DNA of 48,261 nt from positions 1-48,261 of the forward strand of contig DYLS01000025.1 in NCBI GenBank assembly GCA_020721965.1, in the 5' to 3' direction. Shown here piece by piece: positions 94 to 19,426 of the stretch (positions are counted from its first letter, which is position 1; each line of letters opens with the position of its first letter). This DNA is from Blastopirellula marina (GTDB lineage: Bacteria > Planctomycetota > Planctomycetia > Pirellulales > Thermoguttaceae). The position numbers and the translations under genes were made by a program. The notes beneath the pieces were generated by a model that was not told the DNA's origin, did no database searches, and saw only the letters and a list, made by a program, of their open reading frames with translations.

Positions 94-172
94 GGTGTTA
101 ATCCCGCGGGTTGCTCGTTGCCATATCGGTTTGGATGCCTCGCGGGCCGAGGCGGATTCGGGTGCGGATCTC

Positions 173-1108: not shown

Positions 1109-1393
1109 ACCTCGCCCGCTAGCACTACCGCGCAGGCTTGTTTCCTTGGCTCAACGTTGTTTCCGCGGCTCCCTAGCGTGCGGTGATGGGAGACAGTGCC
1201 TCGCAACCAATGCGGGGCGCATGATGCCACCAAGCGGACTTTGCGCCGTAGCACTGCGCGCTCTGGTCCGGCGGTTTGATGGTCCCTGGGGCGGCAAGCC
1301 GCGGTCCGTAGGGATCGCACCGAAGAGCAGAGGTTGCGGCGGTGCCCCCAGCGCTTTTGCCCCAATCGGCGGACATCCCTTGCTGTACTGGGG

Positions 1394-1618
1394 ATTCCGG
1401 ATGATCCGCCAATCGCTCGGGCTTGGGGAAGGATACGTGAAGCGTTAGGGCTTGGGGAAGGATACGTGAATCGGTAGGGCTTCAAAAATGGTGGACCCAT
1501 CGCTCGGCTTCAAAAAAAGATCGGCCAATCATCAGGGCTTTCGAAATGATAGGTCCGTCGCTAGCGATTCAAAAATGATGGCCAAATCGCCAGGGCTTCG
1601 AAAACCGCGGCTGAACGG
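1394..1618. repeat. Degenerate 29-bp tandem array
   Basis: About eight imperfect units of 28-30 bp fill the gap before the vWA gene. Units begin near 1394, 1422, 1451, 1480, 1508, 1538, 1567 and 1596. Two adjacent units (1422-1450 and 1451-1479) are nearly identical, both starting CTTGGGGAAGGATACGTGAA. The others share the frame CTTCAAAAATGRT...CCAATCGCCAGGG. The rest of the 1109-1706 gap (about 600 bp) holds no gene that I can support. Confidence 0.75.
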
Positions 1619-1706
1619 TCCTGTTGCAACCTATATTTGAGATGATCCCTCGGTGTATCGGGCTACCTACCGCCCCTCCCTCCCTCGATATCGGTTCAGC
1701 CTCGCC

Positions 1707-3605: not shown

Positions 3606-3629
3606 AACTAGCTCGTCGTGCATCAGAAC

Positions 3630-3732
3630 AGGTTTGGCTCGGGCGTCACCACGCGTTCGGTCCGGGCAATAGAACGGGTTCGGCCCGGGCGTTAAACACG
3701 TTCGGCGCGTACACCAAGTGGGGTTCGACGCC
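3630..3732. repeat. Degenerate ~23-bp tandem array
   Basis: Four to five imperfect copies of a unit resembling GTTCGGCCCGGGC plus about 10 variable bases begin 25 bp after the stop of the vWA gene. The 3606-4130 gap otherwise holds only two weak small open frames (3912 and 4081). Confidence 0.6.
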
Positions 3733-3911
3733 TCCTATAATCAGCCCTGCCCGAAATCGGGTTGGTGGCAGTGCATGCACCTGCTTACAATGATGGTAGC
3801 GTAGTGATGCTAGGGGGTAGGTTTGGACTGCTGGTTTGGACTATTCATTGGGCTATTCAACGGTTTGGGCTGTTCCAGAGGATTACCCCCGGGTTGGGAG
3901 GGAAGGGAGAA

Positions 3912-4049
3912 ATGACGAACTCGAAAGGGCAGCCGCGCAAAACCCAGCGGATTGTGCGGCGACCGGCCACCGCGTTTGCGCACCTGCGGAAACGGATGGC
4001 CCAACGATCGCCCAAGGGGTTGAGTCGTCGCAGGCCGCCCAATCCATGA
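3912..4049 (+). CDS. Possible small basic protein (45 aa)
   Basis: The frame encodes a 45-residue, very Arg/Lys-rich peptide starting MTNSKGQPRKTQRIVRR. The purine-rich run GGGAGGGAAGGGAGAA directly before the ATG could serve as a ribosome-binding site, which is the main support. There is no recognisable domain and no homologue known to me. It lies 81 bp before the UbiD-type gene and could equally be chance. Confidence 0.2.
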   Translation: MTNSKGQPRKTQRIVRRPATAFAHLRKRMAQRSPKGLSRRRPPNP

Positions 4050-4080
4050 GGTCTTGGCGGTAGAGGAGGAAGGCGTCTTC

Positions 4081-4188
4081 ATGGCGCCGCCGTCGATTAC
4101 GGCAAGGACCTGGTTTCTGGGAAATGCAACATGGGTTACCGCACGCTCCGCGCCTGTGTCGAAGATCTGCTGGCCACGCGCCGCATGA
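4081..4188 (+). CDS. Possible leader peptide overlapping the UbiD-type gene
   Basis: A 35-codon frame starts at an ATG preceded by a strong Shine-Dalgarno run, AGAGGAGGAAGG, seven bases upstream. It ends at 4188 inside the decarboxylase gene, in another frame. The decarboxylase's own start at 4131 has only a weak Shine-Dalgarno. Translational coupling is therefore possible, but the peptide shows no recognisable features. Confidence 0.2.
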   Translation: MAPPSITARTWFLGNATWVTARSAPVSKICWPRAA

Positions 4189-5978
4189 TTCAAATCGACG
4201 TTCCGATCGATCCGAATCTGGAGGCGGCGGAGATTCAACGGCGTGTGTTTCGGGCGGGCGGTCCCGCACTCTATTTCGCCTCGGTTCGTGGCTGCCGCTT
4301 TCCCATGGCCTGCAATTTGTTTGGCACCATGGATCGGGTTCGATACATTTTTCGCGATGCGCTGGACGGTTTGGCCCGGCTCGTTCAGTTTGGCGTCGAT
4401 CCCTCCGACTGGCTGCGTCGGCCCCGATTGATGTTGAAGCTCCCTTGGTGGGCGCTGACCGCGCGGCCCAAGCCCGTCTCCTGGGGACCGGCCACGGCGT
4501 ACGGGATATCCGTCTCGCAACTGCCGCATCTTCGCTCTTGGCCGAATGATGGTGGGGCCTACATCACGTTGCCGGTGGTGTACACGGAAGACCCGGCCCG
4601 GCCCGGCTTCTTCCATTCCAACCTGGGCATGTACCGCATCCAGCTCGACGGCGGGCAGTACGAGCCGGACCACCAGGTGGGAATGCATTATCAGATTCAC
4701 CGCGGTATCGGCGTGCACCACGCCAAGGCCATCGAGCTGAAGCAGAAGCTCCGCGTGAACGTGTTCGTGGGAGGGGCGCCGGCCATGACGGTCGCCGCCG
4801 TCATGCCGCTCCCCGAGGGGATCAGCGAGTTGTTCTTCGCCGGGCTTTTGGGCCGCCATCGCATCCCCATGATCCGCAGAAAGGACAGCTTGCCGATCTA
4901 CGCCGAGGCGGACTTCGTGCTGACCGGCTATATCGAACCCAAGCGATTGCTGCCGGAGGGACCGTTCGGCGATCACTTGGGCTACTACAGTTTGGCCCAC
5001 GACTTTCCCATGATGCGCGTCGAGCATGTGTATCATCGACCGCGACCGATCTGGCCTTTTACCGTGGTCGGGCGGCCGCCTCAAGAGGACACGATGTTTG
5101 GTCGCCTGATTCACGAGATCGTGGGACCGATCCTTCCCAGGACGATACCTGGGATTCGGGCGGTGCATGCGGTGGATGCGGCGGGCGTGCACCCGCTGCT
5201 GCTGGCGATTGGCAGCGAACGGTACACCCCCTACGACGAACGGAAACGGCCCCAGGAGCTGCTCACGCTGGCCAACGCGCTGTTGGGGCAGGGGCAGCTT
5301 TCCCTGGCCAAGTATCTCTGGCTCGCCGCGGGCGAGGATGATCCCGAACTGGATGTCCACGATGTGGGCGACTTCTTCCGGCACATGTTGGAGCGCGTGG
5401 ACTGGCACCGCGATCTGCATTTTCAGACGTGCACGACGGCCGACACGCTGGACTACACCGGTGGGGCGCTCAACACAGGCTCGAAACTGATCGTCGCCGC
5501 GGTCGGCACCCCGCGACGGACGCTCCCCGTGGCCCTGGATTCCCGCATCAAGATGCCCCGAGACTCGGGCTTTCGAGATCCGCGGGTGCTCTTGCCGGGG
5601 ATTTTGGTCGTACAAGGTCCCCCGTTTCGGGCGGAGGAAAACGGAGAAGACAAGAGTATGGCCGCGTATTGCGCTGCCTACACCCGTCACGACGCCATCA
5701 ACCTCTTTCCCCTCATCGTGGTGGCGGACGACGCGGACTTCACCGCTCGGAATCTTGACAATTTTTTGTGGACCACGTTCACCCGCAGCGATCCCGCCCG
5801 GGATGTGCATGGGATCGAGGCCTTCATCCATCGCAAGCACTGGGGTTGCCACGGCTCGTTGGTGATCGATGCCCGAGCCAAGCCGGAGCATCCGCCCCCG
5901 TTGATCGAGAATCCGGAGGTCTCGCGGCGGGTCGACGAGCTGGCGGCCCCCGGAAAACCGCTGCACGGGATCATCTGA
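4131..5978 (+). CDS. UbiD-family prenylated-FMN decarboxylase
   Basis: The 615-residue protein belongs to the UbiD family of reversible (de)carboxylases that use prenylated FMN. Visible family features include RRMIQIDVPIDPNLE near the start, YRIQLDGGQYEPDHQVGMHYQIHRG written here in two halves (YRIQLDGGQ and GMHYQIHRGIG), and LTGYIEPKRLLPEGPFGDH. The last contains the E-G-P-F-G-D catalytic acid cluster and is followed by LGYYS. At 615 residues it is longer than E. coli UbiD (about 497) and closer to the long forms seen in several phyla. Candidate roles are a menaquinone/ubiquinone-type or aromatic-acid decarboxylase. No UbiX partner or quinone gene is in the window, so the substrate is unknown. 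Confidence 0.88.
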   Translation: MGYRTLRACVEDLLATRRMIQIDVPIDPNLEAAEIQRRVFRAGGPALYFASVRGCRFPMACNLFGTMDRVRYIFRDALDGLARLVQFGVDPSDWLRRPRLMLKLPWWALTARPKPVSWGPATAYGISVSQLPHLRSWPNDGGAYITLPVVYTEDPARPGFFHSNLGMYRIQLDGGQYEPDHQVGMHYQIHRGIGVHHAKAIELKQKLRVNVFVGGAPAMTVAAVMPLPEGISELFFAGLLGRHRIPMIRRKDSLPIYAEADFVLTGYIEPKRLLPEGPFGDHLGYYSLAHDFPMMRVEHVYHRPRPIWPFTVVGRPPQEDTMFGRLIHEIVGPILPRTIPGIRAVHAVDAAGVHPLLLAIGSERYTPYDERKRPQELLTLANALLGQGQLSLAKYLWLAAGEDDPELDVHDVGDFFRHMLERVDWHRDLHFQTCTTADTLDYTGGALNTGSKLIVAAVGTPRRTLPVALDSRIKMPRDSGFRDPRVLLPGILVVQGPPFRAEENGEDKSMAAYCAAYTRHDAINLFPLIVVADDADFTARNLDNFLWTTFTRSDPARDVHGIEAFIHRKHWGCHGSLVIDARAKPEHPPPLIENPEVSRRVDELAAPGKPLHGII

Positions 5979-6057
5979 AGGCCCATCTGCGGTCCCGGCG
6001 GCCGGGAGCGGCGATGCGCGTCGGGGATCGAAACCACGGCTCCCAGTGCGGTTGCAG

Positions 6058-6211
6058 GTAACCGTTCACGGAATATTCCGAGAACCATGCCGGGTTGACC
6101 ACAACGTCCTGTAGTTCCCTTGAACAATCGGCCGCTGCGAGCAGGGCGTTTTTGCTACACGGTTCGTGAAAACGCCGCGTTCTCCGCATCATGCCACCCG
6201 TGAACGGTTAC
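6058..6211. mobile_element. Short non-coding element with GTAACCGTTCACGG inverted termini
   Basis: The 154-bp segment starts GTAACCGTTCACGG and ends with its exact reverse complement. The flanking octamers GGTTGCAG (6050-6057) and GGTCACAG (6212-6219) match at six of eight positions, as an old 8-bp target duplication would. A 5'-GTAA terminus with an 8-bp duplication recalls IS66-type elements, but that link is from memory. No transposase is present. The right flank overlaps the stop codon of the M50 gene. Related ends occur at 24622-24635 and 46140-46153. Confidence 0.6.
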
Positions 6212-6213
6212 GG

Positions 6214-8460
6214 TCACAGGCGGAAATTGAACGTCCGCGCGACAATCCGCCACAGCCGTTCCGCGATGGTCAGCCAATTCGCGGGATCGGTGCGGACCTT
6301 GGCCCGACCGCGGAGACCAGCGAACAATCGTCCCGAAGTGTCATCGAGGGGGACGCGGGCCTGATAGGAAATGCTGATCGGCTTTTCCACGCCGGTCGTG
6401 GGGTCGGTTTTGGTGGCCAACTCGCCTCCTGCCTTGCCCGACAAACGAATCGAAGCGGCCTCGGTTTGCCGCTTCGCGACTTCGGCGATTTCGCCGTGGA
6501 ACGTCTCCGCCGGCAGCTCATCGAGCTTGATTCTTACCGACAACCCAGGGCGGACGAAGTCCACGTCGGCTTGATCGACGACCAGAACGGCCTCCATGCG
6601 TTGCGGATCGCCGATCAGGCAGAACAGCTCGCCCGTCCGCAGATAGGCTCCCAGATTGCGCTTTTCCAAGGGCGTGGCCGACCATTCCGCGAGGTTCGTT
6701 TCGGGCGTCTCACGCTGGGCCTTCCAGGGGGGCGGGTAAACGACGCCGTCCGCGGCGGCGCGGAGTACCAGGCGCTCGCGATCGCGAAGTTTCTCGGCCA
6801 ACTGGTTCTGGGCAGTTTGAGAGGCCTCGCGAAGCGTGGGGATCTCGGCCGCCGCCGCCGGATCGTCGAAACGGCGGCGCTCCAAACCCTGAAGGCGAAC
6901 CTCGTACTGCTTGACGATGGTTTGGAGCCGGGCAATCTCGTATTCCAGGTCGCGATCGCTGAGGCGGGCTAGGACCTGGCCCGCCTTGACGCGTTCGCCG
7001 GGCCGCACCAGCACCGCGTCGATCCGCCCCGGGACCTCGACGTAAACCGGAACGGCGTCCCGTGGTTGGACCTCGCAGGTACACATCACATGGTACGGCA
7101 GGGGGACGAAAAAGAGGAAAGCCAAGATCGCCCCCAGCCCCGCCAAAGTCATGTACAGTCGCGGTTTTTTCACCTGACTCCACCTTCCCGGCACTCGGAG
7201 AAACCGGAATAACTGGTACAGGGGTTGGATCAACAGCCCATACAGCGAAGCCAAAGCGATGGCCTGCCCGATGATTTCCAGACGGTAAGGTTTGAAGATG
7301 CGATTCAGAAACAGGAGGATGGAGAGCACGACCACCCAGCGATAGATGACCGCCGCCACCGAATAGGTGATGAATAGGGCATGGTTGCGTTGCGGCAAAA
7401 AGGGATCGTCTGGTGATTCCAGACCGAGAAAGAGATTGGCCGTATGGCGGGAAAGGATCTGGGTGGCCTTCTGCCGGAGGTTGGGAATCTCCAAGATGTC
7501 GGAGAGTACGTAGTAGCCGTCGTAGCGGAGGAGCGGATTGCCATTGAAGATCACGGTACTTACCGAGCAGATGAACATGACGTTCAACGCCAGGTGATTG
7601 ACCAGTCCCGGTTCGGTAAACCACCACAGGAAGGTAGCCAGCGCGGCGAGCGTCAGCTCGACGAAGATTCCCGCCGCCCCGATCAGTGCGCGGTGCCAGC
7701 GATTGGGGAGCATCCAGGAATCGGAGACATTGCAGTACAGGCAGGGGGTCAAAACGAGAAACATCACGCCCAGCTCGTGGCATTCGCCGCCGAAGTGCTT
7801 GCAGCTCACGCCGTGGCCGAATTCGTGGATGACTTTCGTCACGGCCAGCACGGCCGCCAACCAGAGGGCGTTGGTTGGAGTGAAAAACTGTTGAAAAGTG
7901 GGTAACCGCGAAAGAAATACGTTGAACTCGACCAAGACCAGGAGCAAGGCAGAGAGCCACAGGATTACGCACAGAGTAAACGTCACGGGGTGAAATACCC
8001 AGCGGACATACGGGTAAAGGGCGTTCAGGATACGCTCGGGGTCGATGCCCTTGAAACGGATCGCCAGAATATTGCTGACGGCTTGGATCAGTTCTTTTTT
8101 TCGCCGTTCGCGCCGCCGTTTGAGGAGGTGATAGCCTTGCTCCGGGACGTCGGCCACGACCAGCCCGCTGCGATGCAGCATCCCCAGGAATTGTTGCAAT
8201 TCTTCCAGCGTGATCTTCTGTGGCGGGAATTCGGCCTCGAAACGTTCCTTGATGGCATCCAAGCTGGAGGTGCCGTCCAATTGATTGAGAAGGAAAAACT
8301 CCTCCTCGCGAAACCGGAAATAGTTCAGCCCGACGGGGTCCTTGATGACCCAGTAGTTCTCGCCCTCGTAGCGCTGCCGTTGCGCCACCAGGTCCTGGCG
8401 CTTGCGCAGGGATACGCGACGCGCCGAGCTGGAAACGAGGCTGTCGCTGAGGGTGACCAT
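6214..8460 (-). CDS. PqqD-like / M50 site-2-protease-like / HlyD fusion membrane protein
   Basis: The 748-residue protein has three parts. Residues about 30-105 resemble a PqqD-type peptide-binding winged helix (WVIKDPVGLNYFRFREEEF...LDGTSSLDAI). Residues about 155-440 form a polytopic M50 metalloprotease core with HEFGH at 212-216 and the second motif NGNPLLRYDG at 306-315. All expected zinc ligands (His212, His216, Asp314) are present. After a membrane segment near 435-450, residues about 470-730 form a HlyD-type lipoyl/barrel adaptor (VEVPGRIDAVLVRPGERVKAGQ) with a helical hairpin. The gene is the last of a same-strand locus with two more HlyD-type genes and an outer-membrane barrel. Processing or export of a peptide is the natural inference, but no substrate is identified. 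Its stop codon abuts a repeat element. Confidence 0.85.
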   Translation of the reverse strand: MVTLSDSLVSSSARRVSLRKRQDLVAQRQRYEGENYWVIKDPVGLNYFRFREEEFFLLNQLDGTSSLDAIKERFEAEFPPQKITLEELQQFLGMLHRSGLVVADVPEQGYHLLKRRRERRKKELIQAVSNILAIRFKGIDPERILNALYPYVRWVFHPVTFTLCVILWLSALLLVLVEFNVFLSRLPTFQQFFTPTNALWLAAVLAVTKVIHEFGHGVSCKHFGGECHELGVMFLVLTPCLYCNVSDSWMLPNRWHRALIGAAGIFVELTLAALATFLWWFTEPGLVNHLALNVMFICSVSTVIFNGNPLLRYDGYYVLSDILEIPNLRQKATQILSRHTANLFLGLESPDDPFLPQRNHALFITYSVAAVIYRWVVVLSILLFLNRIFKPYRLEIIGQAIALASLYGLLIQPLYQLFRFLRVPGRWSQVKKPRLYMTLAGLGAILAFLFFVPLPYHVMCTCEVQPRDAVPVYVEVPGRIDAVLVRPGERVKAGQVLARLSDRDLEYEIARLQTIVKQYEVRLQGLERRRFDDPAAAAEIPTLREASQTAQNQLAEKLRDRERLVLRAAADGVVYPPPWKAQRETPETNLAEWSATPLEKRNLGAYLRTGELFCLIGDPQRMEAVLVVDQADVDFVRPGLSVRIKLDELPAETFHGEIAEVAKRQTEAASIRLSGKAGGELATKTDPTTGVEKPISISYQARVPLDDTSGRLFAGLRGRAKVRTDPANWLTIAERLWRIVARTFNFRL

Positions 8461-8490
8461 GGTGAGGACCGTCGAGACGCGAAGTTAGTA

Positions 8491-8655
8491 CTGGACTTTT
8501 GCAAACCGTTCGTTCCCTCTCTGGGAGCGGGCGATAAACTGTGACTCTGGGGAATTCAGGAAAATAAGGTAGTCCGTTTTCGCTGTAAACTATGCTCCTT
8601 CTTTAACCTCATGAGGAGCGAGTGGAGCTTGTGGACCCAATTTGCAAAAGTCCAG
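8491..8655. mobile_element. MITE-like element, copy A
   Basis: The 165-bp non-coding segment is bounded by perfect 15-bp inverted repeats, CTGGACTTTTGCAAA and its complement. The 6-bp flanks are TTAGTA (8485-8490) and GTAGTA (8656-8661), five of six identical. It lies between two genes of the envelope locus, where it could affect co-transcription. Related copies are at 14216 and 24409. Confidence 0.75.
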
Positions 8656-8705
8656 GTAGTAACCGCTTCATGCCCCCATGCGGCAGGGCCTGGCCCGGGC
8701 TGGGG

Positions 8706-9605
8706 TCAAGGTTTTGGCTGAATGCTGAGCGTGCCGCTCAGTCCCGGCCGCAGCAGCCAGTGACCGCTCTTTTCGTCGCGGACGTTTTCCACCTCGGCCC
8801 AGACGGGAAACTCCATGCCCACATCGACCAGGGGACTGACGAACACGACCCGGCCTTGGAACGATCTCTCCACGCCGGGGGGCAGGCGCACGGAGAGGAC
8901 GACCTTGGCACCATCCAACTGAGCTGCCGAGTATGTTTCGGCGCTGAGCATGGCCTCCACGCGGAGGCGATCCATGCGGACAATGCGAAAGACCGTGTCG
9001 CCCGGCTTGACCCATTCGCCCTGATGAAAAAACCGCTTTACCACCACGCCTTCGATGGGCGCCACGATGCGGTACATCTCCAGCTCTTGCTCCACGGCCT
9101 GCAACTCCGCGCGGCGGACGTTCACATTCAGGGAGGAGATTTCCTGGTCGTGCTGGGCCTGTTCGATGGCCAGGGCCGTCTTGCCGCGTTCCAATAACAG
9201 CCGCCGCAACTCGGCCTGCGGGACGGCACCCGTCGCCTGTTGATTGGCCTCCACGGCCTGTTGATATTCGGCGTCGGCCACCATGTTGGCCCACTTGGCG
9301 TATCGGACGTTGACGTCGTTGCCGGCCTCTTTCTCCGCGGATTGAAGCTGGTACATTTTGACGTCTTTGTTCCGCAAGATGAGGGCATCGTCGATCTTGC
9401 CCAGCGGGTCTCCCACCTTGACCGCCTGGCCCTCCACGACGTTGATCTCGACGAGTTGGCCAGCGGAGCGGGCCGGTACTTGGCTTTCATCGATCAGCGA
9501 GACGGGACAACCTTGGACCACGATGGCCGCGTCCCGCTCTCCAGCTTCGGTTTCCGGCCCGAATGCGGTGAGGGCGATACTCAGGGCGATCAGCACCGTT
9601 TGCAT
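8706..9605 (-). CDS. HlyD-family periplasmic adaptor (membrane fusion protein)
   Basis: The 299-residue protein begins with a signal-peptide-like stretch (MQTVLIALSIALTAFG). It has the two half-lipoyl motifs of membrane fusion proteins: VPARSAGQLVEINVVEGQAVKVGDPLGKID near residues 45-75 and YRIVAPIEGVVVKRFFHQGEWVKPGD after a long alpha-helical hairpin (about 80-180). A beta-barrel follows (LSAETYSAAQLDGAKVVL). The start is set at ATG 9605 because the signal peptide begins there and AGAGGA lies about 13 bases upstream; a frame start at 9647 would add 14 unlikely residues. It lies between the GAF-HlyD and M50-HlyD genes on the same strand and probably acts with them in the periplasm. Confidence 0.82.
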   Translation of the reverse strand: MQTVLIALSIALTAFGPETEAGERDAAIVVQGCPVSLIDESQVPARSAGQLVEINVVEGQAVKVGDPLGKIDDALILRNKDVKMYQLQSAEKEAGNDVNVRYAKWANMVADAEYQQAVEANQQATGAVPQAELRRLLLERGKTALAIEQAQHDQEISSLNVNVRRAELQAVEQELEMYRIVAPIEGVVVKRFFHQGEWVKPGDTVFRIVRMDRLRVEAMLSAETYSAAQLDGAKVVLSVRLPPGVERSFQGRVVFVSPLVDVGMEFPVWAEVENVRDEKSGHWLLRPGLSGTLSIQPKP

Positions 9606-9631
9606 GGCTTGGCTTCGATCCTCTTGTGTGT

Positions 9632-9848
9632 CGCTCGGTATCTGCATACCGATTGGTATCTATGTCCCGACTGGTTTTTTGCGTGCCGATTGGTATCTGC
9701 GTGCTGATTGGTATCTTTGTGTTGATCGGTCTCTGAATGGAGATCGGTGTCTGTGTGTCGATCGACTCTTACATGTCGATTGGCGTCTGCGTATCGATCA
9801 ATGGCTGCGTATCGTCGGCGTCTGTGTATCGAGCGGCGTCGTTGGGCA
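9632..9848. repeat. Degenerate 18-bp tandem array
   Basis: About twelve imperfect 18-bp units follow the pattern CGATTGGTATCTGCGTGC. They start 26 bp upstream of the small HlyD gene's start codon, so they lie in its leader or promoter region. One unit is 19 bp because of a longer T run. Because 18 is divisible by three, open frames cross the array as hexapeptide repeats on both strands, but none looks like a real protein. Confidence 0.75.
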
Positions 9849-9928
9849 AGGGGTTGCATAACGGCGGATTCCCGCAAGGTTCTCAAGGGCATGGCCGCGC
9901 CCCGGCCGCGATCCACCCTACCGCATGG

Positions 9929-10030
9929 TGATAATTCGTCCTACCATAGGATGACAATTCGCCGTACTACGGGCTGACGATTCGCCGTACCACAGGGTGA
10001 CGACCCGATCTACCACAGGGTGAACAGCAC
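9929..10030. repeat. 23-bp tandem array that runs into the end of the GAF-HlyD gene
   Basis: Four 23-bp units (9929-9951, 9952-9974, 9975-9997, 9998-10020) follow the pattern TGACGATTCGCCGTACCACAGGG. Read on the minus strand, the shared part TCACCCTGTGGTA corresponds to the last codons of the neighbouring gene (Phe-Thr-Leu-Trp-stop). The array therefore looks like repeated duplication of the gene's 3' end. Confidence 0.75.
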
Positions 10031-12094
10031 CCGCGTGCGGATGAAGGCCACCAAATCCCGGAACCACACGTATCCCACGGGCCGCGTGCCGCACAGCACC
10101 TTGCCGCTGACGCCGGCACCGGGCCGCAATTGTTCAGGCGTAAAATCGTTTTTGTCCACGCCGACCTTGATGAGGACGACGTTGCCTTCCTCTCCCAAAA
10201 CTTCCGCCGAGATATAGACCTCCTTGATCTTTCCACGGCGGACCCGGCCCGGGTCCGTGGCCAGGACGTATTCCACCGCCAGGTCTTGATTGGGGTCTTT
10301 CTGGCGGAGGGCCTGCCGGGCCAGGGCGATTTCCCCCATCCGGTCCTCCGGCATGTGCATTTCCAGCTCCCAATCGCCGCTGGTATCCGCCACGCGAAGG
10401 AGTACCTGGCCGCGATTGACCGGCCGGTTGATGAGGCGGTTGTATACGTCCCACGTCACCACCTCACCATCGCGGGGGCTGATTACGGTTAGTTCCTTGG
10501 CCTTCTCTTGCAAGACGGCCTTTTGCGCCCGCAGGCTGATCTGCTTGGCCTCCAATTCCGCCCGCTCTCCCGACAGCCGATTGCGGTCCTGCGTGGTGAG
10601 CAAGCGATTCTCGGCCAGCTCCTTGAGAATGGTGGCGATCTGCTTTTGATTGGCGGCGAGCTGACCGTCGATCTCCAGCATCGACTGCTTCAATTCCGAG
10701 TTCCGCAGCCGCACCAGTTCCTGGCCCTTTTGGACCCGCAGCCCGTGCCGCACGAATACCTCTTCGACCACCCCGTCGATCCCAGCGAAGACGTCGCTTC
10801 GCTCGGCCGGTTCCAAGGTACCACGGGCGTGCAGTTTGAAGGGCCACGGGAAGAAGGCCAAAAAAGCCGCCAGGGCGACGGTCGCGGCTGCAACCAGCGC
10901 CGCCTTGGGCAGCATACGTGCCTGGGCCAGGGTCCGCGACTTGCCGATGCTCCGCCAAAGCGGCATCAGAAAGACTTCGTTGTGCTCTACCGCATTAGCC
11001 AGGGCCAGCGAGGCGTGCGTGGCCACCACATCCACCCGGCGACGGAGTTGCGGCGTGATGCGGCTGTCTTCGATCTGTTCCACGACGAGCGCGCCGACCG
11101 GCGGCATGGGGTCCTTGGGACGGTCCGCCTCTGCCTCATCGTCCGGCGGCGGCATGGGCCGACTGAGCGGCAAGACGATCACCGTCTTGGACTGGGATTC
11201 GTCCACGTATTCCTGAACCGCGTCCTCGATTTGGGGTGCCTGGTTCGAGGTGTCCCCGCAATACCAGACCGGTTCGCGGCCCCTGGCCACTACCCGACAT
11301 AACCGATTCAACAGTCGCACGGTGTTCGACCGCTTATTGACCACATCCTGGCCGCTGATGGCCTCGATCACGCAATCCGTGCCTCGGCGGACCGCCACGC
11401 TGACGCGGTCGCACTCGATGAGGCGGCGGGCTTCGTTGGCCAAGACGTAGGCCGTCTCCCGAGGCTCCAGGCCCGCGTGAATCAGCCGCGTGAACTCCTC
11501 CAGTTTCGACCATAGCGCCTGGCGATCGGAAAGGCTGCGGAGTTGCCGGGACTTGAAATAGTCGCCCGCCAACTCGCACATCTGGGACACGAAACGGAGG
11601 TAGCCCTTCTGCGCAGGGGCCGGGGCATCCGGACGCTGGAAGACCTCCACCAGGCCGACCGTCTCCGACTCGGTTCGCACCGGTCCCAAAACCAGGAGAA
11701 AGTCGGTGGGGTTGGCCTCCCCGTTGGTTTCGCCCGTACCGCTCCGCGGAACGACGAGCGTCGGTTCACCGCTGGTCAGGACCTTTTGCAAGAGTCGCGC
11801 GTGCCTCTGCTGCGATTCCTCGCTCTCTGTCAGCCGCGTATCCTGGAGATTCATTTGATAGGCGAGTACCAGGCGGTTTTGGCCCTCGGAAAGCCAAAAG
11901 ACGCCGCCCACCGCAGCAAGCGCGGAGACCACGCGGGGGAGAAATTCGGCTGAATACTCCTCCGGACTCAGGTCGGAGCGCGACAATTGCGTAATCTCAT
12001 TGACCAAGGTGCGGATGTGCATCCGCGTCTGCTCAATGAGTTGAGGATCCAACGATTGTTCGCTACTCATGACCGATTGATCGCCACTTCCCAT
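10010..12094 (-). CDS. GAF-domain HlyD-family adaptor
   Basis: The 694-residue protein joins a long cytoplasmic part to a periplasmic adaptor. Residues about 45-180 and 195-370 each look like a GAF-type sensor domain (for example AAVGGVFWLSEGQNRLVLAYQMN and VSVAVRRGTDCVIEAISGQDVV written from two regions). One membrane segment lies at about 398-416. Residues 425-690 are HlyD-like: a half-lipoyl motif DGVVEEVFVRHGLRVQKGQE, a helical hairpin rich in Glu/Lys/Gln, and VISPRDGEVVTWDV as the second half. The start could also be ATG 12070, which removes eight residues. It sits upstream of the small HlyD gene on the same strand. The GAF part suggests that adaptor activity responds to a small ligand or redox state, which is inference. 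Confidence 0.8.
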   Translation of the reverse strand: MGSGDQSVMSSEQSLDPQLIEQTRMHIRTLVNEITQLSRSDLSPEEYSAEFLPRVVSALAAVGGVFWLSEGQNRLVLAYQMNLQDTRLTESEESQQRHARLLQKVLTSGEPTLVVPRSGTGETNGEANPTDFLLVLGPVRTESETVGLVEVFQRPDAPAPAQKGYLRFVSQMCELAGDYFKSRQLRSLSDRQALWSKLEEFTRLIHAGLEPRETAYVLANEARRLIECDRVSVAVRRGTDCVIEAISGQDVVNKRSNTVRLLNRLCRVVARGREPVWYCGDTSNQAPQIEDAVQEYVDESQSKTVIVLPLSRPMPPPDDEAEADRPKDPMPPVGALVVEQIEDSRITPQLRRRVDVVATHASLALANAVEHNEVFLMPLWRSIGKSRTLAQARMLPKAALVAAATVALAAFLAFFPWPFKLHARGTLEPAERSDVFAGIDGVVEEVFVRHGLRVQKGQELVRLRNSELKQSMLEIDGQLAANQKQIATILKELAENRLLTTQDRNRLSGERAELEAKQISLRAQKAVLQEKAKELTVISPRDGEVVTWDVYNRLINRPVNRGQVLLRVADTSGDWELEMHMPEDRMGEIALARQALRQKDPNQDLAVEYVLATDPGRVRRGKIKEVYISAEVLGEEGNVVLIKVGVDKNDFTPEQLRPGAGVSGKVLCGTRPVGYVWFRDLVAFIRTRVLFTLW

Positions 12095-12511
12095 CCCGTG
12101 GTTAGCTTCGCCAAATCATGCCTCCAGACCGAGTTGCCAGGCTCGGCGGAGGGTTTACTGTATTCTAGCAGTTAACTTTCGGCTCTTGGGAGGATCGATT
12201 TGCCTGTCCGGTTTTTTTCTCTGACTTGGAGGCAGAGGAGAACGATTGCTGGCGATTATAGCGAGCAGGCCGAGCTTGCCGATCGCGCGGATTTCGCTGG
12301 TAATCCTGGTGGTGATCCCGCCGCAGGAGAGGCTGCGACGAGGTGCCCGTTTCGATGCGGTCGCCCCTTCCGTGGTTGCTTGCCGAACGACGGAGAGGAA
12401 AGGCGGAATCAGGAGCGGGCTGCCTCGCCCGGCCCGAGGGGAGGGCTGCGTCTTCCCGGCATGTCGAGAGTTGAGTTCCGCGTCGGTCTGTGGTCCATCC
12501 CCATTCGCCGG
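12095..12511. other. Gap without a supported gene
   Basis: About 417 bp between the GAF-HlyD gene and the barrel gene. Open frames exist on both strands but lack family features and ribosome-binding sites. A TAGAAT -10-like hexamer on the minus strand (12162-12167) has no good -35 partner, so a separate promoter for the GAF-HlyD gene is only possible. Confidence 0.4.
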
Positions 12512-13984
12512 TCAAAACGCCAGCCCACCACTGAAAAATAGGGCGGTACTGGGTTTGACCTGGTCGGTGAGTCCCGCCTCGTACACCAATTCTCGGGAAA
12601 AACTAATGCCCAATTCGGCATATCCGCGGAAACCCCGCAGCCGGTAAGACTCCAGACCCGTCGCCAGGCGAACATCGTTGTAATCGACCTGCTCCCCTGC
12701 CCCGGCGTTGATGCCGCTGGTCCGCTTGATGGTCCACGACCCGCCTCCGTAGTCACCGCGCACATACCACCACCAGTCGGCCGCGGAGGCCTGCGGAATC
12801 CGCATCGCAAATCTGGGGTTGGGGAAAAGGATCGATATCTCCATAGACGGATCGTTTGGATTATCGACCCAGATGGCGCCGCCGGTGGGCAACGTCTTGA
12901 CGCGCACGCGGTCCAGATACATCACACCGCCTTTGAGCTTCCAGTTGGGCGATAGCGCGAGAGTCAAGAGGCCACGGCCCTGAAACCGCAGACTACCGCT
13001 GGTGACTTTGCGGAAGTCGCTGTACACACCAATGCGGAAGTCCAATTCTCCGCCCAAGGTGGGCGTAATGCTTGGCTCCCAGGCGGCGTCGAGATAGGCA
13101 TCGTACGTGGTGGGGGGCATGTCCGCCGAGGCTGGATCCAGGGTGGAAACAGGCCCGCTCCACCAGTGAAAGGCGAAACCCGGCGTCACGCGGAGGGGCG
13201 GGCCATCCGTCCGCAAAAACGGAAAGGCGAATGTCGCGAACAATTCCACGTCGTCGATGCCCAGGTGCGAGCTGTCGGGAATCAAGGTGCACCGCATCCC
13301 CACGGCCTCGCGGAACTTGATGGCGGAGTTGATGAAGTCGTTCGTCTGCAAGCCGGGGAAAATGGCGCCCTGGGGAAACACGGAGGCCGGCCCCGTCCCC
13401 GGCGTCGCGTAGGGGTCCCAGCTTGGCGGGGGGACCCCGGTCGCGGCATACGGCGCACCTGGCCCCGGGGCGACTGTCGGACCACCTGGCGCATAGTAGG
13501 GCACCGAACTGGGGGGATAGCTGGGCGGGGGGATCGCCGTGGTCCCTGCCCCCGGGGAGGCACCCGGGGCGGGCGTAGGCGGGGGACTGTCCCATGGCGA
13601 CGGGATGGTCGCCGTCCCCCCCGCAGGACTGGAGGGTCCCGCCGCGGTCCCCGGTGTGGAATACGTCGGCACAGGGTAGTTGCCGGGTGCCGCTGCACCG
13701 GACGTGCCTGTACTACTTGGTGCGATACCACCAGGGGGGACCGTTCCAGCATAGCTGGGAGCCAGGGGGGCTGTCCCTGCCGTCGGTGGTGTCCGTTCAT
13801 AGACCGACCCACTGCCTCCGGTAGTGTCGCTGCTATCCTGGGAGCTGCTATATGCGGCGGAGGGAAATCGGACCCGTTGGGCATTCGACTCGCCGAATCC
13901 GAGCGTCAATAGGACTACGGCCGCCGTGGCTGGACATAGCAACGGACTGACGCGAGAATGGCAGCAAGTCGGTTCAAAACGCAT
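12512..13984 (-). CDS. Outer-membrane beta-barrel protein with Pro/Gly-rich linker
   Basis: The 490-residue protein has a signal peptide (hydrophobic core around 18-30, ending FGESNAQ). A long low-complexity Pro/Gly/Thr/Ser/Ala region follows at about 40-210, then about 280 residues of alternating amphipathic strands ending in GLAF with a C-terminal Phe, as in outer-membrane barrels. The barrel part (VGMRCTLIPDSSHLGIDDVELFATFAFPFL in two strands, GGELDFRIGVYSDF, GRGLLTLALSPNWKLKGGVMYLD) resembles proteins labelled DUF6268, though that assignment is from memory. It is the first gene of the same-strand locus with three HlyD-type proteins and may be the outer-membrane end of that system. The gap of 417 bp to the next gene weakens the case for a single transcript. 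Confidence 0.7.
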   Translation of the reverse strand: MRFEPTCCHSRVSPLLCPATAAVVLLTLGFGESNAQRVRFPSAAYSSSQDSSDTTGGSGSVYERTPPTAGTAPLAPSYAGTVPPGGIAPSSTGTSGAAAPGNYPVPTYSTPGTAAGPSSPAGGTATIPSPWDSPPPTPAPGASPGAGTTAIPPPSYPPSSVPYYAPGGPTVAPGPGAPYAATGVPPPSWDPYATPGTGPASVFPQGAIFPGLQTNDFINSAIKFREAVGMRCTLIPDSSHLGIDDVELFATFAFPFLRTDGPPLRVTPGFAFHWWSGPVSTLDPASADMPPTTYDAYLDAAWEPSITPTLGGELDFRIGVYSDFRKVTSGSLRFQGRGLLTLALSPNWKLKGGVMYLDRVRVKTLPTGGAIWVDNPNDPSMEISILFPNPRFAMRIPQASAADWWWYVRGDYGGGSWTIKRTSGINAGAGEQVDYNDVRLATGLESYRLRGFRGYAELGISFSRELVYEAGLTDQVKPSTALFFSGGLAF

Positions 13985-14215
13985 GGCTCAGGCCTTCGCT
14001 GGCGTCAGCTTCGTTCGCTTCCCAAATCCGCGGCCTGCTCTGCCGCAGGCATCCCCACCCCGGCCGTATTCCTGGTTCCACATCCACCCCAGTAGTCTAT
14101 TTGGCTCCTGCTTACGGGACGCTGCGGTTCGCCAACCCTGAACGGGCAGCATGGCAGGGGTCGGGAATCGGGGCCCGGGGGTCCCATCGGACGCCGCGTG
14201 GTATCACAATTACGG

Positions 14216-14392
14216 CTGGGCTTTTGCAAACTGCCCATCCCCCTCTGAGAGAGGGCTGCAAACCGGATGGCTGGCTGGATGGCTGGGAAATCACGGAAAA
14301 CTAGGAAATCTGTTTTTATGGGAAACTACCTTCCCAGCTACCATCTCCTGAGGGCAGAGGGGAGTTTGTGAGCACTCGTTGCAAGAGTCCAG
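14216..14392. mobile_element. MITE-like element, copy B
   Basis: The 177-bp non-coding segment starts CTGGGCTTTTGCAAAC and ends GTTGCAAGAGTCCAG, an imperfect inverted repeat. It is flanked by a perfect 6-bp direct repeat TTACGG (14210-14215 and 14393-14398). Internal blocks such as CCCTCTGAGAGAGGG and GGGAAACTACCTTCC match the reverse complement of copy C. It ends 64 bp before the biotin ligase start and may lie in that gene's leader. Confidence 0.8.
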
Positions 14393-14456
14393 TTACGGGA
14401 CAGAATGGAGTAACAAAGGAAGGCGGGGACGTCAAGGGAGAATGGCGAGGGGGAAC

Positions 14457-15356
14457 ATGCGAACGGGAAATTTTTTGGATGTCGGCCGACTTGTGGAGGC
14501 GTCGCTGGTAGCGTCGGCCGAGCATTTCCAGGAGCTGACCTCGACGAACGACGTGGCCAAAGGGCTGGCCCGGCAGCCCGACTTGCCCCTGCCCTATCTC
14601 GTCGTCGCGGAACACCAAACGGCGGGGCGTGGTCGGGGCACGCATCGTTGGTGGACCGGTTCCGGCAGCCTGGCTTTTTCGGTGATCCTGAATGCCGGGG
14701 GGGGCACCGACGCGGATAACGCGGAGAATAGAGGGGGCCATGCGATCAGTTCCCGGACAAGTCGGGGCGTCTGCCACGGTCACCACGCGTCAGGCCCATC
14801 GGAGCCTTCGGAGGGCCACGCCGCGGAGATTCCTCTATCCAGTCCCGTGGTCTCCGCACTGGCGGCAGGTCTTGCGGTGCATGATGCCGTCCGCCCTTTC
14901 GTGCCTCTCACATTCCCGCTGGGCCTGCACTGGCCCAACGATGTGTACGTAGGCGAACGGAAGCTCAGCGGTACGTTGGTCGAAACTGCGAATGGGCGTA
15001 GCGTGGTGGGAATCGGCGTGAACGTCAATAATCGCTCGGCGGACGGCCCGGCCGAGTTGCGCGACCGGGTAATCTCGATCATCGATCTGGTCGGCGTACC
15101 GGTGGACCGGGGAGATGTTTTGGAGGCGATTCTGCGCAACCTGTGGCAGCTCTTGCGGCATCCCATCTCGCACGTCGCGAGCCGGGCCGATGCCCTGTGC
15201 CTTCAAAAAGGGCGGGAGCTGGAGGTTGATACAGGCTCCGGCGTGATCTCCGGGGTCTGCCGCGGCATCGACGCCCTGGGGCGGCTCGAGTTGGAGAGGC
15301 GTGGCCAGACCTTTCGCTGCGTATCGGGGACGGTGCGGCGACGCACCCCGGCGTAG
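14457..15356 (+). CDS. birA: Biotin--[acetyl-CoA-carboxylase] ligase
   Basis: The 299-residue protein is a BirA-type ligase that activates biotin with ATP and attaches it to carboxylase carrier domains. It carries ELTSTNDVAKG, VVAEHQTAGRGRG (the biotinyl-AMP loop, around residues 49-61), LHWPNDVYVGERKLSGTLVE with the key Lys, and a small C-terminal barrel domain. It lacks the N-terminal HTH of E. coli BirA, so it is probably only an enzyme and not a repressor. A poorly conserved, Gly/His/Ser-rich insert of about 45 residues lies at about 80-127, where other ligases have a short turn. ATG 14457 is preferred because GAGGGG lies seven bases upstream; ATG 14442 is also possible. Confidence 0.9.
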   Translation: MRTGNFLDVGRLVEASLVASAEHFQELTSTNDVAKGLARQPDLPLPYLVVAEHQTAGRGRGTHRWWTGSGSLAFSVILNAGGGTDADNAENRGGHAISSRTSRGVCHGHHASGPSEPSEGHAAEIPLSSPVVSALAAGLAVHDAVRPFVPLTFPLGLHWPNDVYVGERKLSGTLVETANGRSVVGIGVNVNNRSADGPAELRDRVISIIDLVGVPVDRGDVLEAILRNLWQLLRHPISHVASRADALCLQKGRELEVDTGSGVISGVCRGIDALGRLELERRGQTFRCVSGTVRRRTPA

Positions 15357-15369
15357 GCATCTGATACTC

Positions 15370-15420
15370 CAGCGTAAAGTCCGCCCATTTCATCGCTAAG
15401 TCCGCCCCTAAGTCCGCCTG
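15370..15420. repeat. Short 12-bp direct repeats
   Basis: Three copies of TAAGTCCGCCC (first as TAAAGTCCGCCC) lie just after the biotin ligase stop, two of them adjacent. They form one part of the repeat-filled 15357-15655 gap. Confidence 0.5.
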
Positions 15421-15465
15421 ATTGCATGATGGCATGATGTGCCCGGCATGGATTGCGAGGCGTCA

Positions 15466-15546
15466 TGTCCCATCACCACAAGATGTCGAGCCAAGCCATC
15501 AACCTTACGCTGTGGCACTCCATCAACCTTGCGCTGTAGCACTACA
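15466..15546. repeat. REP-like intergenic repeat, copy 2
   Basis: The sequence includes CCATCACCACAAGATGTCGAGCC followed by two copies of CATCAACCTTRCGCTGTRGCAC. It matches the 17.6 kb copy (CCATCACCACAAGCTGTTGAGCC) closely and the window-start copy in part. Confidence 0.55.
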
Positions 15547-15591
15547 AAGGTGTAACGTCATCCCCGGCGGAAGGAGGAGCCCCCAATGTGC

Positions 15592-15661
15592 AGCACGCAA
15601 TATGAAGCACGCGTTGTGAGGCACGCATTACGGGGCACGCGTTATGGAGCACGCATCATGC
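15592..15661. repeat. Five exact-length 14-bp tandem units ending on a stop codon
   Basis: Five consecutive 14-bp units of the form RGCACGCRTTATGG occupy 15592-15605, 15606-15619, 15620-15633, 15634-15647 and 15648-15661. The last unit contains the stop codon (15656-15658, minus strand) of the adjacent membrane-protein gene. Confidence 0.75.
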
Positions 15662-17491
15662 CGTTGCCGATTGCTGTTGTTGGGCAAGCCGCCGCTCGTA
15701 CAGTTCCCGAAGCCGTTTCTTTTCTTCTTTGGTGAGCTTCCGGCTGATCCCCACTGGCGACGGCTCGGGGCCGCCGTTTTGGGGCGAGCCTGAGTTGCCG
15801 GATGTCGGGCCGAGATGGCCGGTGGCCTGCGGAGGAGCCGGCGACGGATTCGGTGATATGGTCGCTCCGATGGCAGCGGCGGGGAATTGCGGGCCTGCTA
15901 TCTGCTGGTAGGCGGGGCTTGGCTGATTGCCCAGACCCGGTTGAGCGCGCCCAGCCCAACCTTGTACCGACATGCCGCCCGCAAATCGGGTGGAGACACT
16001 CTCGGAGGTAGTCGTCGTGTTGGCGTCGGCGGGTTGAGAAGCGCCGGGCATGGATGATGGTCCCAGTGTTGCATAGTTGCGGGCCGTCGGGCTGGGGCCG
16101 AGGGCGGGATGCGAGGCCGACGGCGGCTGTGGTGTGCCATCAGCTCGCCCAGCATTCCAGCCGTAACGGACGGCCTCGTCGCGCGGCGTCCCCCAGGGTG
16201 CTGGCGACGACGGCACGGAGGGAGTCGCATTTTGCATCTGAGCCGCTGCCCGCTGCGTTTCAGCGTAGGCCATGCCCGCCAAAAAGGCGTTGACGCTCGT
16301 CGCGGCGTCCGAGGTCGGCATCGGCGTTGCGCTCGGGGCGGCGAGGGTTGCCGCCGGCGGAGTCAGCGTGCCAACAGCCTGCGGTAAATCCAGGTCCGAT
16401 CGCCTGGCTCGCACGGAGGAGCTGCTGCGCCGTCGAATGATCCGTCTCGCGGCACTTACGACACGCCCGCGGCCTCGGATATGGGGCGGATGGATGATTA
16501 AGAAGTCGCCGTTCTCCAAGGCGGCGTCGAGGTCGTCGGAAAACCCTTGCGCCTCCGCAGGTTCGCCGCTTGGCGCCGTGGTCTGACTGCGACGCCAAAC
16601 TAGCTCTCGGAACGTGGCCAGGGGGGCCTCAGGGTCAGGAGGCTCGTCTCTGCCGTCACCCATCATCAACGCCTGCAATAGTCGCCGGGTGTGACAGCTC
16701 ATTGCCGTCAGCACAAGCCAATGTCCAGCCAGCTCCGGCACCTCTTCCCAAAGCACGCGGTCGGAAACGACGGGGAGCGGAATCCGCGGGAACAACTGCA
16801 CCCATGCGGACAACGCATAGGCCGCGGCCGCCGAGAGGAACAGCAGGATCGCCAGGGCCGAACGTCGCCGCGCCATGGCCGGAACGGCGCGGATGCCGAA
16901 GGCCAGAAATGCAAGGCCGTACAGGAGCATCCAAGAGAGTTGAGCGGGCATGTCGGGCCAGAGATTGGTCCGGCCAACGACGAAATCGGAAAGGATGGGG
17001 TGGAGACCCACCGATTCATCCAATCCCATCACGGGCCAAAGGATCGCGCCCAGCAGCCACGCCCGCGGAGGCGACGTATCCTCGCCTTCATCGATGTTCT
17101 CTAGCCACCAAGCAATGAGGGAACAAAGCCCTGCGGCGGTCAGCACCAGTGTGGCGAACCAACTTGCCACGTTGCCCGGACCGTCCAGCCCGAAGGCGGA
17201 TAGCGGTCGGTCCGTCCAAGAGGGGTTCGTGGTCCCCAAGCCGAGAAACAGCCCGATCAGGACGGAAATGGCGGCCACGCCGGTCACGAGCATTCCGATG
17301 GGCTGTCCCCGTGAGGGAAACAGATCGAGCGCCCAGGGGAGTTGATCGAGGAGCATCCAGCGTCGGAGTTCTTGGTGCGAAATGGGCACCGCCGGGGGAT
17401 CGGTGGGATCACCTCGGCCGCCGGAGGCCGGATGGGAGCCGGGACCCCGCGGCTGCATGTCGCCCGCCTGAAAAGAATGCGAAGACCCCAT
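15656..17491 (-). CDS. Multi-pass membrane protein with disordered tail, function unknown
   Basis: I do not recognise a named family. The first half has about five hydrophobic segments (for example GMLVTGVAAISVLIGLFLGL, ASWFATLVLTAAGLCSLIAW, LSWMLLYGLAFLAFGIRAV, LAILLFLSAAAAYALSAWVQ). The second half is a Pro/Ala/Ser/Thr-rich tail of about 280 residues ending in a short charged helix (LTKEEKKRLRELYERRLAQQQQ). It is probably a cytoplasmic-membrane protein with a flexible soluble tail. The start is uncertain: ATG 17491 or 17458 gives a short hydrophilic N-terminus, while a frame start at 17626 adds an unlikely Arg-rich stretch. Its 3' end carries a 14-bp repeat array. Confidence 0.6.
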   Translation of the reverse strand: MGSSHSFQAGDMQPRGPGSHPASGGRGDPTDPPAVPISHQELRRWMLLDQLPWALDLFPSRGQPIGMLVTGVAAISVLIGLFLGLGTTNPSWTDRPLSAFGLDGPGNVASWFATLVLTAAGLCSLIAWWLENIDEGEDTSPPRAWLLGAILWPVMGLDESVGLHPILSDFVVGRTNLWPDMPAQLSWMLLYGLAFLAFGIRAVPAMARRRSALAILLFLSAAAAYALSAWVQLFPRIPLPVVSDRVLWEEVPELAGHWLVLTAMSCHTRRLLQALMMGDGRDEPPDPEAPLATFRELVWRRSQTTAPSGEPAEAQGFSDDLDAALENGDFLIIHPPHIRGRGRVVSAARRIIRRRSSSSVRARRSDLDLPQAVGTLTPPAATLAAPSATPMPTSDAATSVNAFLAGMAYAETQRAAAQMQNATPSVPSSPAPWGTPRDEAVRYGWNAGRADGTPQPPSASHPALGPSPTARNYATLGPSSMPGASQPADANTTTTSESVSTRFAGGMSVQGWAGRAQPGLGNQPSPAYQQIAGPQFPAAAIGATISPNPSPAPPQATGHLGPTSGNSGSPQNGGPEPSPVGISRKLTKEEKKRLRELYERRLAQQQQSATA

Positions 17492-17611
17492 AAACAAGGC
17501 CAAGTGCGGTCGTGGTCCGTTCGATTTGGGCACCCTGACGCAACGACGAGCGGCTGCCACAGTCTGAGCACTACGCCGCAAAGTTCGCCGGAATGGCTGA
17601 TGGCCCCAGCG

Positions 17612-17725
17612 TATGCTGTGAGGCACTACGTTCCATTACCCCAACCACCACAAGACGCTGTGGGACACTACGTTCCATCACCACAAGCTGTTGAGCCAAG
17701 CAAACAACCCTACCCTGTAGCGTTA
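17612..17725. repeat. REP-like intergenic repeat, copy 3
   Basis: Two and a half units of GCTGTGRGRCACTACGTTCCATYACC...CCACAAG are followed by CTGTTGAGCCAAGCAAACAACC. The last part is shared with the copies at 52-93 and 15466-15546. The wider gap 17492-18235 holds this repeat and a promoter but no supported gene. Confidence 0.55.
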
Positions 17726-18011
17726 ACTGACGAATGCGGCAGACGCGGTCGCGATATCCCCCTATTCGCTCATCGGCTAGAGCGACCTTCTCGCGTCGAT
17801 GAACTCTCTGGAGGCTTGTCAGTTTGCCTATTTTGTCACGGTGCGGCCGCCACTATCGCGGTGGGGCTCTTCTGGAGCGGCGGGTTCTCCGCACGAATGT
17901 CGGTCTGTGGGAGGAATTTCAGGGAAATCCGGAACGACTGGGATATGCAATTCAGATAACGCTTGAATGCCAAGCGATTAAGATTTCAGTCAAAATCTGT
18001 GCGCAAAAAGA

Positions 18012-18039
18012 TTGCATATCTCCAGCGCATGCTTATAAC
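18012..18039 (+). promoter_or_regulatory. Probable sigma-70-type promoter
   Basis: TTGCAT (18012-18017) and TATAAC (18034-18039) are separated by 16 bp in a locally AT-richer stretch, about 200 bp upstream of the DUF1559 gene. Confidence 0.45.
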
Positions 18040-18235
18040 AATTCGGACGAGGGATCAGACATCGTATCTCCGTGAATCGCTTATCCGTTTGTAGAAAGGA
18101 GGCGAAAAAAGGTCGGCCTCGGGTGTGTGGGGTTTCTTCTCGGCGTGCTGCTGCCACCTACGATGGCAGCGGGTCCAAGGTCAGCCGCGGCGGGATTGCG
18201 GATGTGTTCTTTTCTTTTTCTGGGGAGTCTGTGCC

Positions 18236-19369: not shown

Positions 19370-19426
19370 AATGAGGGTACGGCACTCGTCGTCCCGGCAG
19401 CGATAAGCAGCGGGCGATTTGCTGGA

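Follow-up and report, generated by a model that had tools for sequence, protein, structure and literature searches.

Positions 6214–13984 of a 48,261-nucleotide stretch of Blastopirellula marina DNA (contig DYLS01000025.1 of assembly GCA_020721965.1, referred to as the window) hold four open reading frames (ORFs) on the minus strand. The locus raises two questions: what do its products carry across the cell envelope, and what drives the transport? An initial annotation of the window had treated the four genes as one unit, a candidate system for the processing and export of peptides, sensed and protease-driven, that has no ATPase. It was found that three of the genes form a conserved trio, which probably supplies the inner-membrane and periplasmic portions of a SecA-energised exporter of the HlyD/TolC type for giant surface proteins with a LEPR-type leader. 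By such a leader we mean an N-terminal basic stretch followed by LEPRxLLSAD or one of its variants.

The machine itself was already known. A module of SecA, M50, HlyD and GAF proteins in Planctomycetes and other bacteria was described by Kamneva, Poudel and Ward in 2015 (PMC4452313), with the secondary SecA proposed as a possible ATPase and M50 as a possible pore; the sections of that paper on the module name no substrate. Genes META1p2399-2402 of Methylorubrum extorquens AM1, a host with the module, are named there. What is new here is the likely cargo, indicated by the link to the LEPR leader, together with the PqqD domain and the association with DUF3467. A term search of the main text of PMC4452313 returned neither DUF3467 nor PqqD, LEPR or giant. 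In open-access PMC without bioRxiv, searched by titles and abstract openings, we found no paper besides Kamneva 2015 on the module and none joining LEPR-XLL, DUF3467 or PqqD to it, which is no proof of absence.

The trio and its M50 protease

The first member of the trio, called M50H (6214..8460, minus strand, 748 aa), joins a PqqD-like domain, an M50 intramembrane metalloprotease and an HlyD adaptor, as judged from Pfam and NCBIfam matches, alignment and a structural model. It is accompanied on the same strand by a free periplasmic adaptor of the HlyD/RND type (8706..9647, 313 aa, family matches) and by GAF-HlyD (10010..12094, 694 aa), which has GAF domains, one predicted transmembrane segment and an HlyD part. 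GAF-HlyD has a hydrophobic stretch at residues 398–416, and its residues 211–365 (11000..11464) matched PF01590 over the cut-off (E = 2.1e-7). The M50, HlyD and GAF matches of the window proteins all passed their Pfam cut-offs, and the domains first assigned to these three genes mostly stand. Degenerate tandem repeats with 18-bp and 23-bp units (window 9637–9840 and 9916–10023) make up much of the gap between GAF-HlyD and HlyD, and the second of them slightly overlaps the end of the GAF-HlyD gene.

Both protease motifs of M50H are intact in the window: HEFGH at residues 212–216 (7813..7827) and NGNPLLRYDG at residues 306–315 (7516..7545), the latter containing D314. When 80 full-length M50H sequences, the window among them, were aligned, H212, E213, H216 and D314 were invariant in all 80, and the glycine of HEFGH was kept in 66. 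As in Peptidase M50 generally, HExxH and a distal Asp are found in membrane helices, which are seen in the model. The adaptor part of M50H (residues 457–723; 6292..7092) matched HlyD_3 and HlyD_D23 of Pfam and resembled MacA, MexA and EmrA in a Foldseek search.

The N-terminal domain of M50H (residues 18–103; 8152..8409) is the proposed leader reader. The window protein alone scored below the PqqD cut-off (PF05402, 16.9 bits against 23.4), and the PqqD-like domain of the initial annotation is carried by other evidence. A PqqD match at E≤0.05 was obtained for 15 of 17 aligned M50H members including the window, the best at 1.9e-6, and the family profile matched the solved PqqD/RRE chains 3g2b (PqqD, E = 0.002) and 6jx3 (TfuB1, E = 0.0075). 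In the AlphaFold model (mean pLDDT 84.6) these residues form strands and three helices. Together the profiles and the model support a PqqD/RRE-like domain, which may bind a leader.

M50H is present in 80 of 292 Planctomycetota genomes, the window's own counted. Its surroundings were compared in 81 loci, namely 80 fetched M50H neighbourhoods and the opening 20 kb of the window, with neighbour families identified on cluster representatives. GAF-HlyD and HlyD each occurred in 60 loci; the counts were 30 for a secondary SecA, 18 for DUF3467 and 16 for a TolC-type channel (OEP). The number for GAF-HlyD may be 63, as in L102, L104 and L110 a second protein without HExxH was labelled M50H and is probably GAF-HlyD. 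The trio was complete in 47 loci, and in 33 of the 81 it lay on one strand within 7.5 kb. A second set of 80 loci (L141–L220), titled Planctomycetota or related bacteria and mostly metagenome-assembled genomes (MAGs), overlaps with the first and cannot count as independent (the contigs of L168 and L040 are equally long); many of its contigs are cut. Here HlyD was found in 66 loci, GAF-HlyD in 62, DUF3467 in 28, SecA in 10 (two of them fragments) and OEP in 3. M50H, HlyD and GAF-HlyD form a conserved trio.

The fourth gene (12512..13984, 490 aa), which had been read as an outer-membrane barrel, stands outside this unit. It was found in 3 of the 81 loci, the window counted, and in none of the 80 loci of the second set, and it had no Pfam or NCBIfam match at the thresholds used. 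The product is a putative outer-membrane protein; an N-terminal hydrophobic stretch suggests its export. As the gene is not conserved across loci, the barrel was dropped as a candidate for the outer-membrane exit of the system. In five loci (L035–L039), barrel porins of the BBP7 and BBP2 families, as identified on representatives, flank the trio region on the opposite strand.

A secondary SecA and other scattered partners

The statement that there is no ATPase is true of the 6214–13984 interval and false for the genome. A secondary SecA (SecA2) is encoded on contig C55 (658-aa ORF, 893 bits), not adjacent to the trio; along most of its length it shares 63% identity with the SecA that lies beside the trio in L035. 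A longer SecA is encoded on contig C62. Of 30 secondary SecA sequences, 29 showed the Walker A motif GEGKT. The window genome also encodes DUF3467 on C358 (130 bits) and, again not adjacent to the trio, a TolC-type channel on C345 (577 bits to a model derived from the loci). In G145, a complete genome from the window's genus, the parts are likewise scattered, with LEPR at 0.73 Mb, SecA at 2.40 Mb, the TolC-type channel at 2.98 Mb, M50H at 3.23 Mb and DUF3467 at 4.32 Mb. Hence the scatter in the window genome is not just MAG contamination.

A secondary SecA was scored in 52 of the 292 genomes. All 52 were M50H-positive, whereas the overall figure is 80 of 292 (Fisher 2e-37). In 47 of the 52 the score rested on an open frame of ≤800 aa alone; the remaining five were scored by a SecA lying beside M50H and are hence not independent (fetched loci of G004, G028 and G034; open frames >800 aa in G267 and G241). 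In G052, G130, G269 and G027 the only SecA match, a shortened one, was taken to be the housekeeping protein; counting these four genomes gives 52/56. By association, therefore, the secondary SecA ATPase is the probable energy source of the system. Among the matches listed, G222, G242, G272 and G257 have M50H and just one SecA match each.

These findings place the window in the module of Kamneva 2015, as a member with scattered partners. It shares with the module the M50+HlyD fusion, a separate HlyD/biotin-lipoyl protein and a GAF-HlyD alongside, a secondary SecA (SecA_DEAD) in the genome, in the module often though not always adjacent, and an OEP/TolC protein, which is found in the module in some cases (PMC4452313); it differs in that the SecA, DUF3467 and OEP genes lie elsewhere in the genome. 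The DUF3467 protein was modelled with a pLDDT of 73.7 and a pTM of 0.48. It had been considered as a possible SecB-like chaperone; searches of PDB with Foldseek, with VIA-align and with a sequence profile gave no clear match, and no SecB appeared among the matches listed.

No ABC pump is consistently associated with the trio, in line with the initial annotation. ABC-ATPase-like ORFs were detected by phmmer in 6 of the 81 neighbourhoods (a stricter motif pattern gave 2/81, an undercount); in 2 cases the distance to M50H was under 3 kb, and there was none in window 1–20000, so that a transporter of the HlyB type is absent at the locus. Among clusters present in at least five loci there was no RND or ABC partner save one ABC-ATPase cluster (c9, 5 loci), RND pumps not having been searched by model. 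The system resembles Type I secretion (HlyB-HlyD-TolC) in its HlyD adaptors, in the TolC-type channel of its genome and in its proposed large adhesin-like cargo, but differs from it in lacking an associated ABC transporter, in having a SecA-like ATPase and PqqD-M50, and in an N-terminal leader. Substrates of Type I secretion carry a C-terminal signal.

Leader-bearing giants as the likely cargo

To relate the trio to its proposed cargo, the LEPR-XLL model NF012209 was applied at E≤0.02 to the 292 Planctomycetota genomes. Matches were found in 34 genomes, and 33 of these were M50H-positive (P = 2e-20); outside the window's class the figure was 22 of 23 (P = 3e-18). The window genome has LEPR-XLL matches over the model cut-off on C63, C283 and C259. 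A further match, on C229, falls under it; an open frame of 6,655 aa on this contig starts with a similar leader. The three LEPR proteins of this genome that were scanned bear Ig-like, SdrD_B or beta-helix domains. The leader type of NF012209 is the same in these proteins and in the plasmid giants described below, for which we propose the role of cargo. The term LEPR-XLL appears in PMC9611531 and in PMC10868602; a search of the latter gave one passage, on a giant Vibrio protein, and found M50, HlyD and SecA unmentioned.

A loose leader pattern was then applied to the 81 loci. Of 32 non-machine ORFs with at least 1100 aa, 7 had the pattern (shuffled N-termini, 0.12/32), some of these being relatives of one another (L035/L036/L038 and L058/L060). 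It was present in 3 of 88 ORFs of 600–1100 aa, in 4 of 445 of 200–600 aa, and in none of 270 machine proteins. Within the taxonomic order of the window, M50H and DUF3467 are followed in all five loci L035–L039 by a same-strand gene for a protein of 1,141–1,177 aa, whose leader is of the LExR kind: LESRELLDAG in L035, LESRQLLDGA in L036, LEARQLLDAG in L038, and LEVREVFDAAG in both L037 and L039. The L039 protein was confirmed to contain cyclophilin and Ig domains, and the C63 protein of the window genome, also with cyclophilin and Ig, is 40% identical to the L035 protein over 371 aa. A hydrophobic stretch precedes the leader in the L035–L039 proteins (e.g., L035 4520–8011, minus strand), as read from mechanical start codons. 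This stretch could be the substrate helix of the intramembrane protease.

Proteobacterial plasmids lend independent support. A tblastn search with M50H matched 82 plasmid records, and 19 regions were examined. They fall into two clades of the M50H tree, each with 100/100 support, and the PqqD-like N-terminus is retained in both, as seen by alignment and not by model. One clade, the SecA branch, falls inside a group that includes the Planctomycetota rows and the window. Its 10 loci have GAF-HlyD and M50H in all cases, SecA2 in 9, HlyD in 6, DUF3467 in 5 and OEP in 2 (by model); Thalassospira, assigned to this branch by the tree, has no SecA in its region. The other, the TolC branch, has 9 loci with no SecA2 match within the regions examined and a typical order of a large gene followed by TolC, HlyD, HlyD and M50H. 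In 6 of 6 readable loci of the SecA branch and 6 of 9 of the TolC branch, the exporter genes come after large leader-bearing genes of 1,213–16,239 aa, in operon-like arrangements.

In the SecA branch, leaders were readable in 6 of 10 loci, since in the other 4 the record or region stopped short. All six giants carried LEPRxLLxAD or a close variant. By gene coordinates, these giants measure 12,918 aa in Pseudosulfitobacter, 10,603 aa in Pontibrevibacter, 10,518 aa in Mesorhizobium, 8,847 aa in Methylosinus, 8,148 aa in Alisedimentitalea (leader absent from the annotated start and present in the in-frame upstream sequence) and 4,033 aa in Thalassospira. The gene order is LEPR-XLL protein, GAF-HlyD, M50H, SapC, SecA2, HlyD in Pseudosulfitobacter, and giant, DUF3467, GAF-HlyD, M50H, SecA2, HlyD, TolC in Methylosinus. 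In public records the secondary SecA of two such loci is annotated as 'prepilin peptidase' (L222 14144–16060 and L223 17014–19038; 765–780 bits to the SecA2 model).

In the TolC branch, where leaders were sought in all 9 loci, 6 had a leader resembling LExRxMFDAA (Niveispirillum, two Azospirillum, Variovorax, Burkholderia anthina and Citrobacter). None was found in Magnetospirillum (493-aa neighbour), Phyllobacterium (1,417 aa) or Indioceanicola (mechanical start only). The leader of Azospirillum argentinense belongs to a gene of 1,213 aa, which lies one position further upstream. On a Variovorax paradoxus plasmid (L253), a 48.7-kb gene for 16,239 aa with the leader LEARYMFDAA lies ahead of the exporter genes. 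Enterobacterial plasmids also encode an M50-HlyD relative (18 Escherichia and 8 Citrobacter records); on the one that was examined, the Citrobacter IncHI1B,IncP plasmid L225, its gene comes after that for an Ig-like protein of 4,465 aa, whose leader is LESRQLFDGA. Papers on the RSP protein of IncHI plasmids (PMC6764697, PMC8730810, PMC11268884) were considered as an experimental precedent and set aside, since RSP is a different, 155-kDa protein reported there to leave by a type IV system.

Leader variants largely follow the M50H tree, with LEPRxLLxAD accompanying SecA and LExRxMFDAA the TolC branch, a pattern that would fit co-evolution of leader and reader. The tie is not strict, for the SecA-linked L037 and L039 have LEVREVFDAAG. 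Further variants seen are LESRxLLDAG and LEPRxALT.

Proposed mechanism and its alternatives

The sequences agree with the trans-envelope route of the initial annotation, in which a domain of the leader-binding type, an intramembrane protease and HlyD adaptors would serve export. In the mechanism that we favour, the LEPR-type leader would be bound by the PqqD/RRE-like domain of M50H, and the secondary SecA, encoded elsewhere in the genome, would drive the unfolded chain. The inner-membrane passage may be formed or lined by the helices of M50H, where the protease site may cut the leader or gate the passage. Such a cut would agree with the description of the related RRE-site-2 protease MpaP, which takes off the leader of daptides (PMC10036551). 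In the periplasm, M50H, GAF-HlyD and HlyD would assemble into a conduit that leads to a TolC-type channel. The GAF domains may gate or sense, and DUF3467 would act as a cytoplasmic accessory.

Several results weigh against such an exporter for LEPR proteins. At the threshold used, 47 of the 80 M50H-positive genomes have no LEPR match, NF012209 being a short model that misses leader variants such as those in L058, L060 and L035–L039; conversely, genome G132 has LEPR but no M50H. As an upper bound, 28 of the 80 M50H-positive genomes have no SecA2 scored, and DUF3467 occurs in 16 of 75 genomes lacking M50H. Proximity within Planctomycetota is modest: 2 of 114 LEPR matches lie within 5 kb of M50H (0.38 expected, P = 0.055), 4 within 10 kb (0.75, P = 0.007), 6 within 20 kb (1.51, P = 0.004) and 6 within 50 kb (3.76, P = 0.18). 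A high-quality subset of 209 genomes contains all 34 LEPR genomes and 69 of the 80 M50H genomes, so genome quality or lifestyle may account for part of the co-occurrence. Not every long ORF close to the trio is cargo; the kinase-WD40 proteins in L056/L079 plainly are not.

It is unlikely, though the strongest of the competing explanations, that the Kamneva module secretes another substrate and that the LEPR link is a by-product of large, adhesin-rich genomes. The genome-level nature of the co-occurrence, the many M50H genomes without LEPR matches and the shared bias to high-quality genomes would fit this view; it does not account for the leader-bearing large genes that adjoin the proteobacterial loci, or for the broad agreement between leader variants and the M50H tree.

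The small-peptide cargo of the initial annotation, with a maturation route like that of ribosomally synthesised and post-translationally modified peptides (RiPPs) in which a small precursor is bound by PqqD, trimmed by M50 and exported by HlyD proteins, is improbable. M50H shares the RRE/PqqD and M50 architecture with MpaP, described as an RRE-dependent intramembrane peptidase (site-2 protease) that removes the leader in daptides (PMC10036551), and the window protein matches the MpaP model NF041824 with 192.6 bits over residues 25–414. Both this model and the LiaK/YydH model NF058609 matched 30 of 30 members of one M50H alignment. On the other hand, the window protein is under the cut-offs of both (300 bits for NF041824), it has an extra HlyD domain, and it accompanies SecA and giant genes. 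A CxxxCxxC (radical-SAM-like) ORF, sought by a crude pattern, was within 5 kb of M50H in 3 of 81 loci only; no RiPP gene cluster was seen, and no RiPP enzyme was found among scanned representatives, one per cluster found in at least five loci, small precursors (ORFs <70 aa) not having been searched. Large LEPR-leader surface proteins are the more likely cargo.

Very improbable is a third explanation, an efflux or regulatory device in which envelope stress or the efflux of small molecules would be controlled by a GAF-sensing HlyD protein together with an M50 site-2 protease. Signalling proteins often contain GAF and M50 domains, and the free HlyD (8706–9647) scored above the RND_mfp cut-off. 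The association with SecA, the giant genes at the head of the plasmid loci and the lack of an RND or ABC partner beyond cluster c9 among the clusters of at least five loci all speak against it.

The favoured exporter of LEPR proteins may be taken one step further, to a possibility that we hold only tentatively. The loci may represent a separate class of Gram-negative protein export, in which an RRE/PqqD domain reads the N-terminal LEPR leader, the fused intramembrane protease doubles as gate and leader peptidase, and chains of up to ~13,000 aa (in the SecA branch) are driven through HlyD/TolC by a SecA paralogue in place of an ABC protein; a sister branch, without SecA in the examined regions, would handle up to 16,239 aa. 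The loose tie of leader to branch in L037 and L039 slightly lowers the odds of this idea. If it is true, the published exporter gains a substrate and the LEPR-XLL leader a machine, and both become testable. It would also explain how very large proteins reach the surface without an ABC pump in Planctomycetes and some Proteobacteria, and a leader-reading domain known from RiPP maturation would have been reused for protein secretion.

Next to the trio, the window has a 718-aa ORF (3810–5966, minus strand) antisense to a gene for a UbiD-family decarboxylase (4131–5978, plus strand); this ORF is probably an artefact of high GC content.

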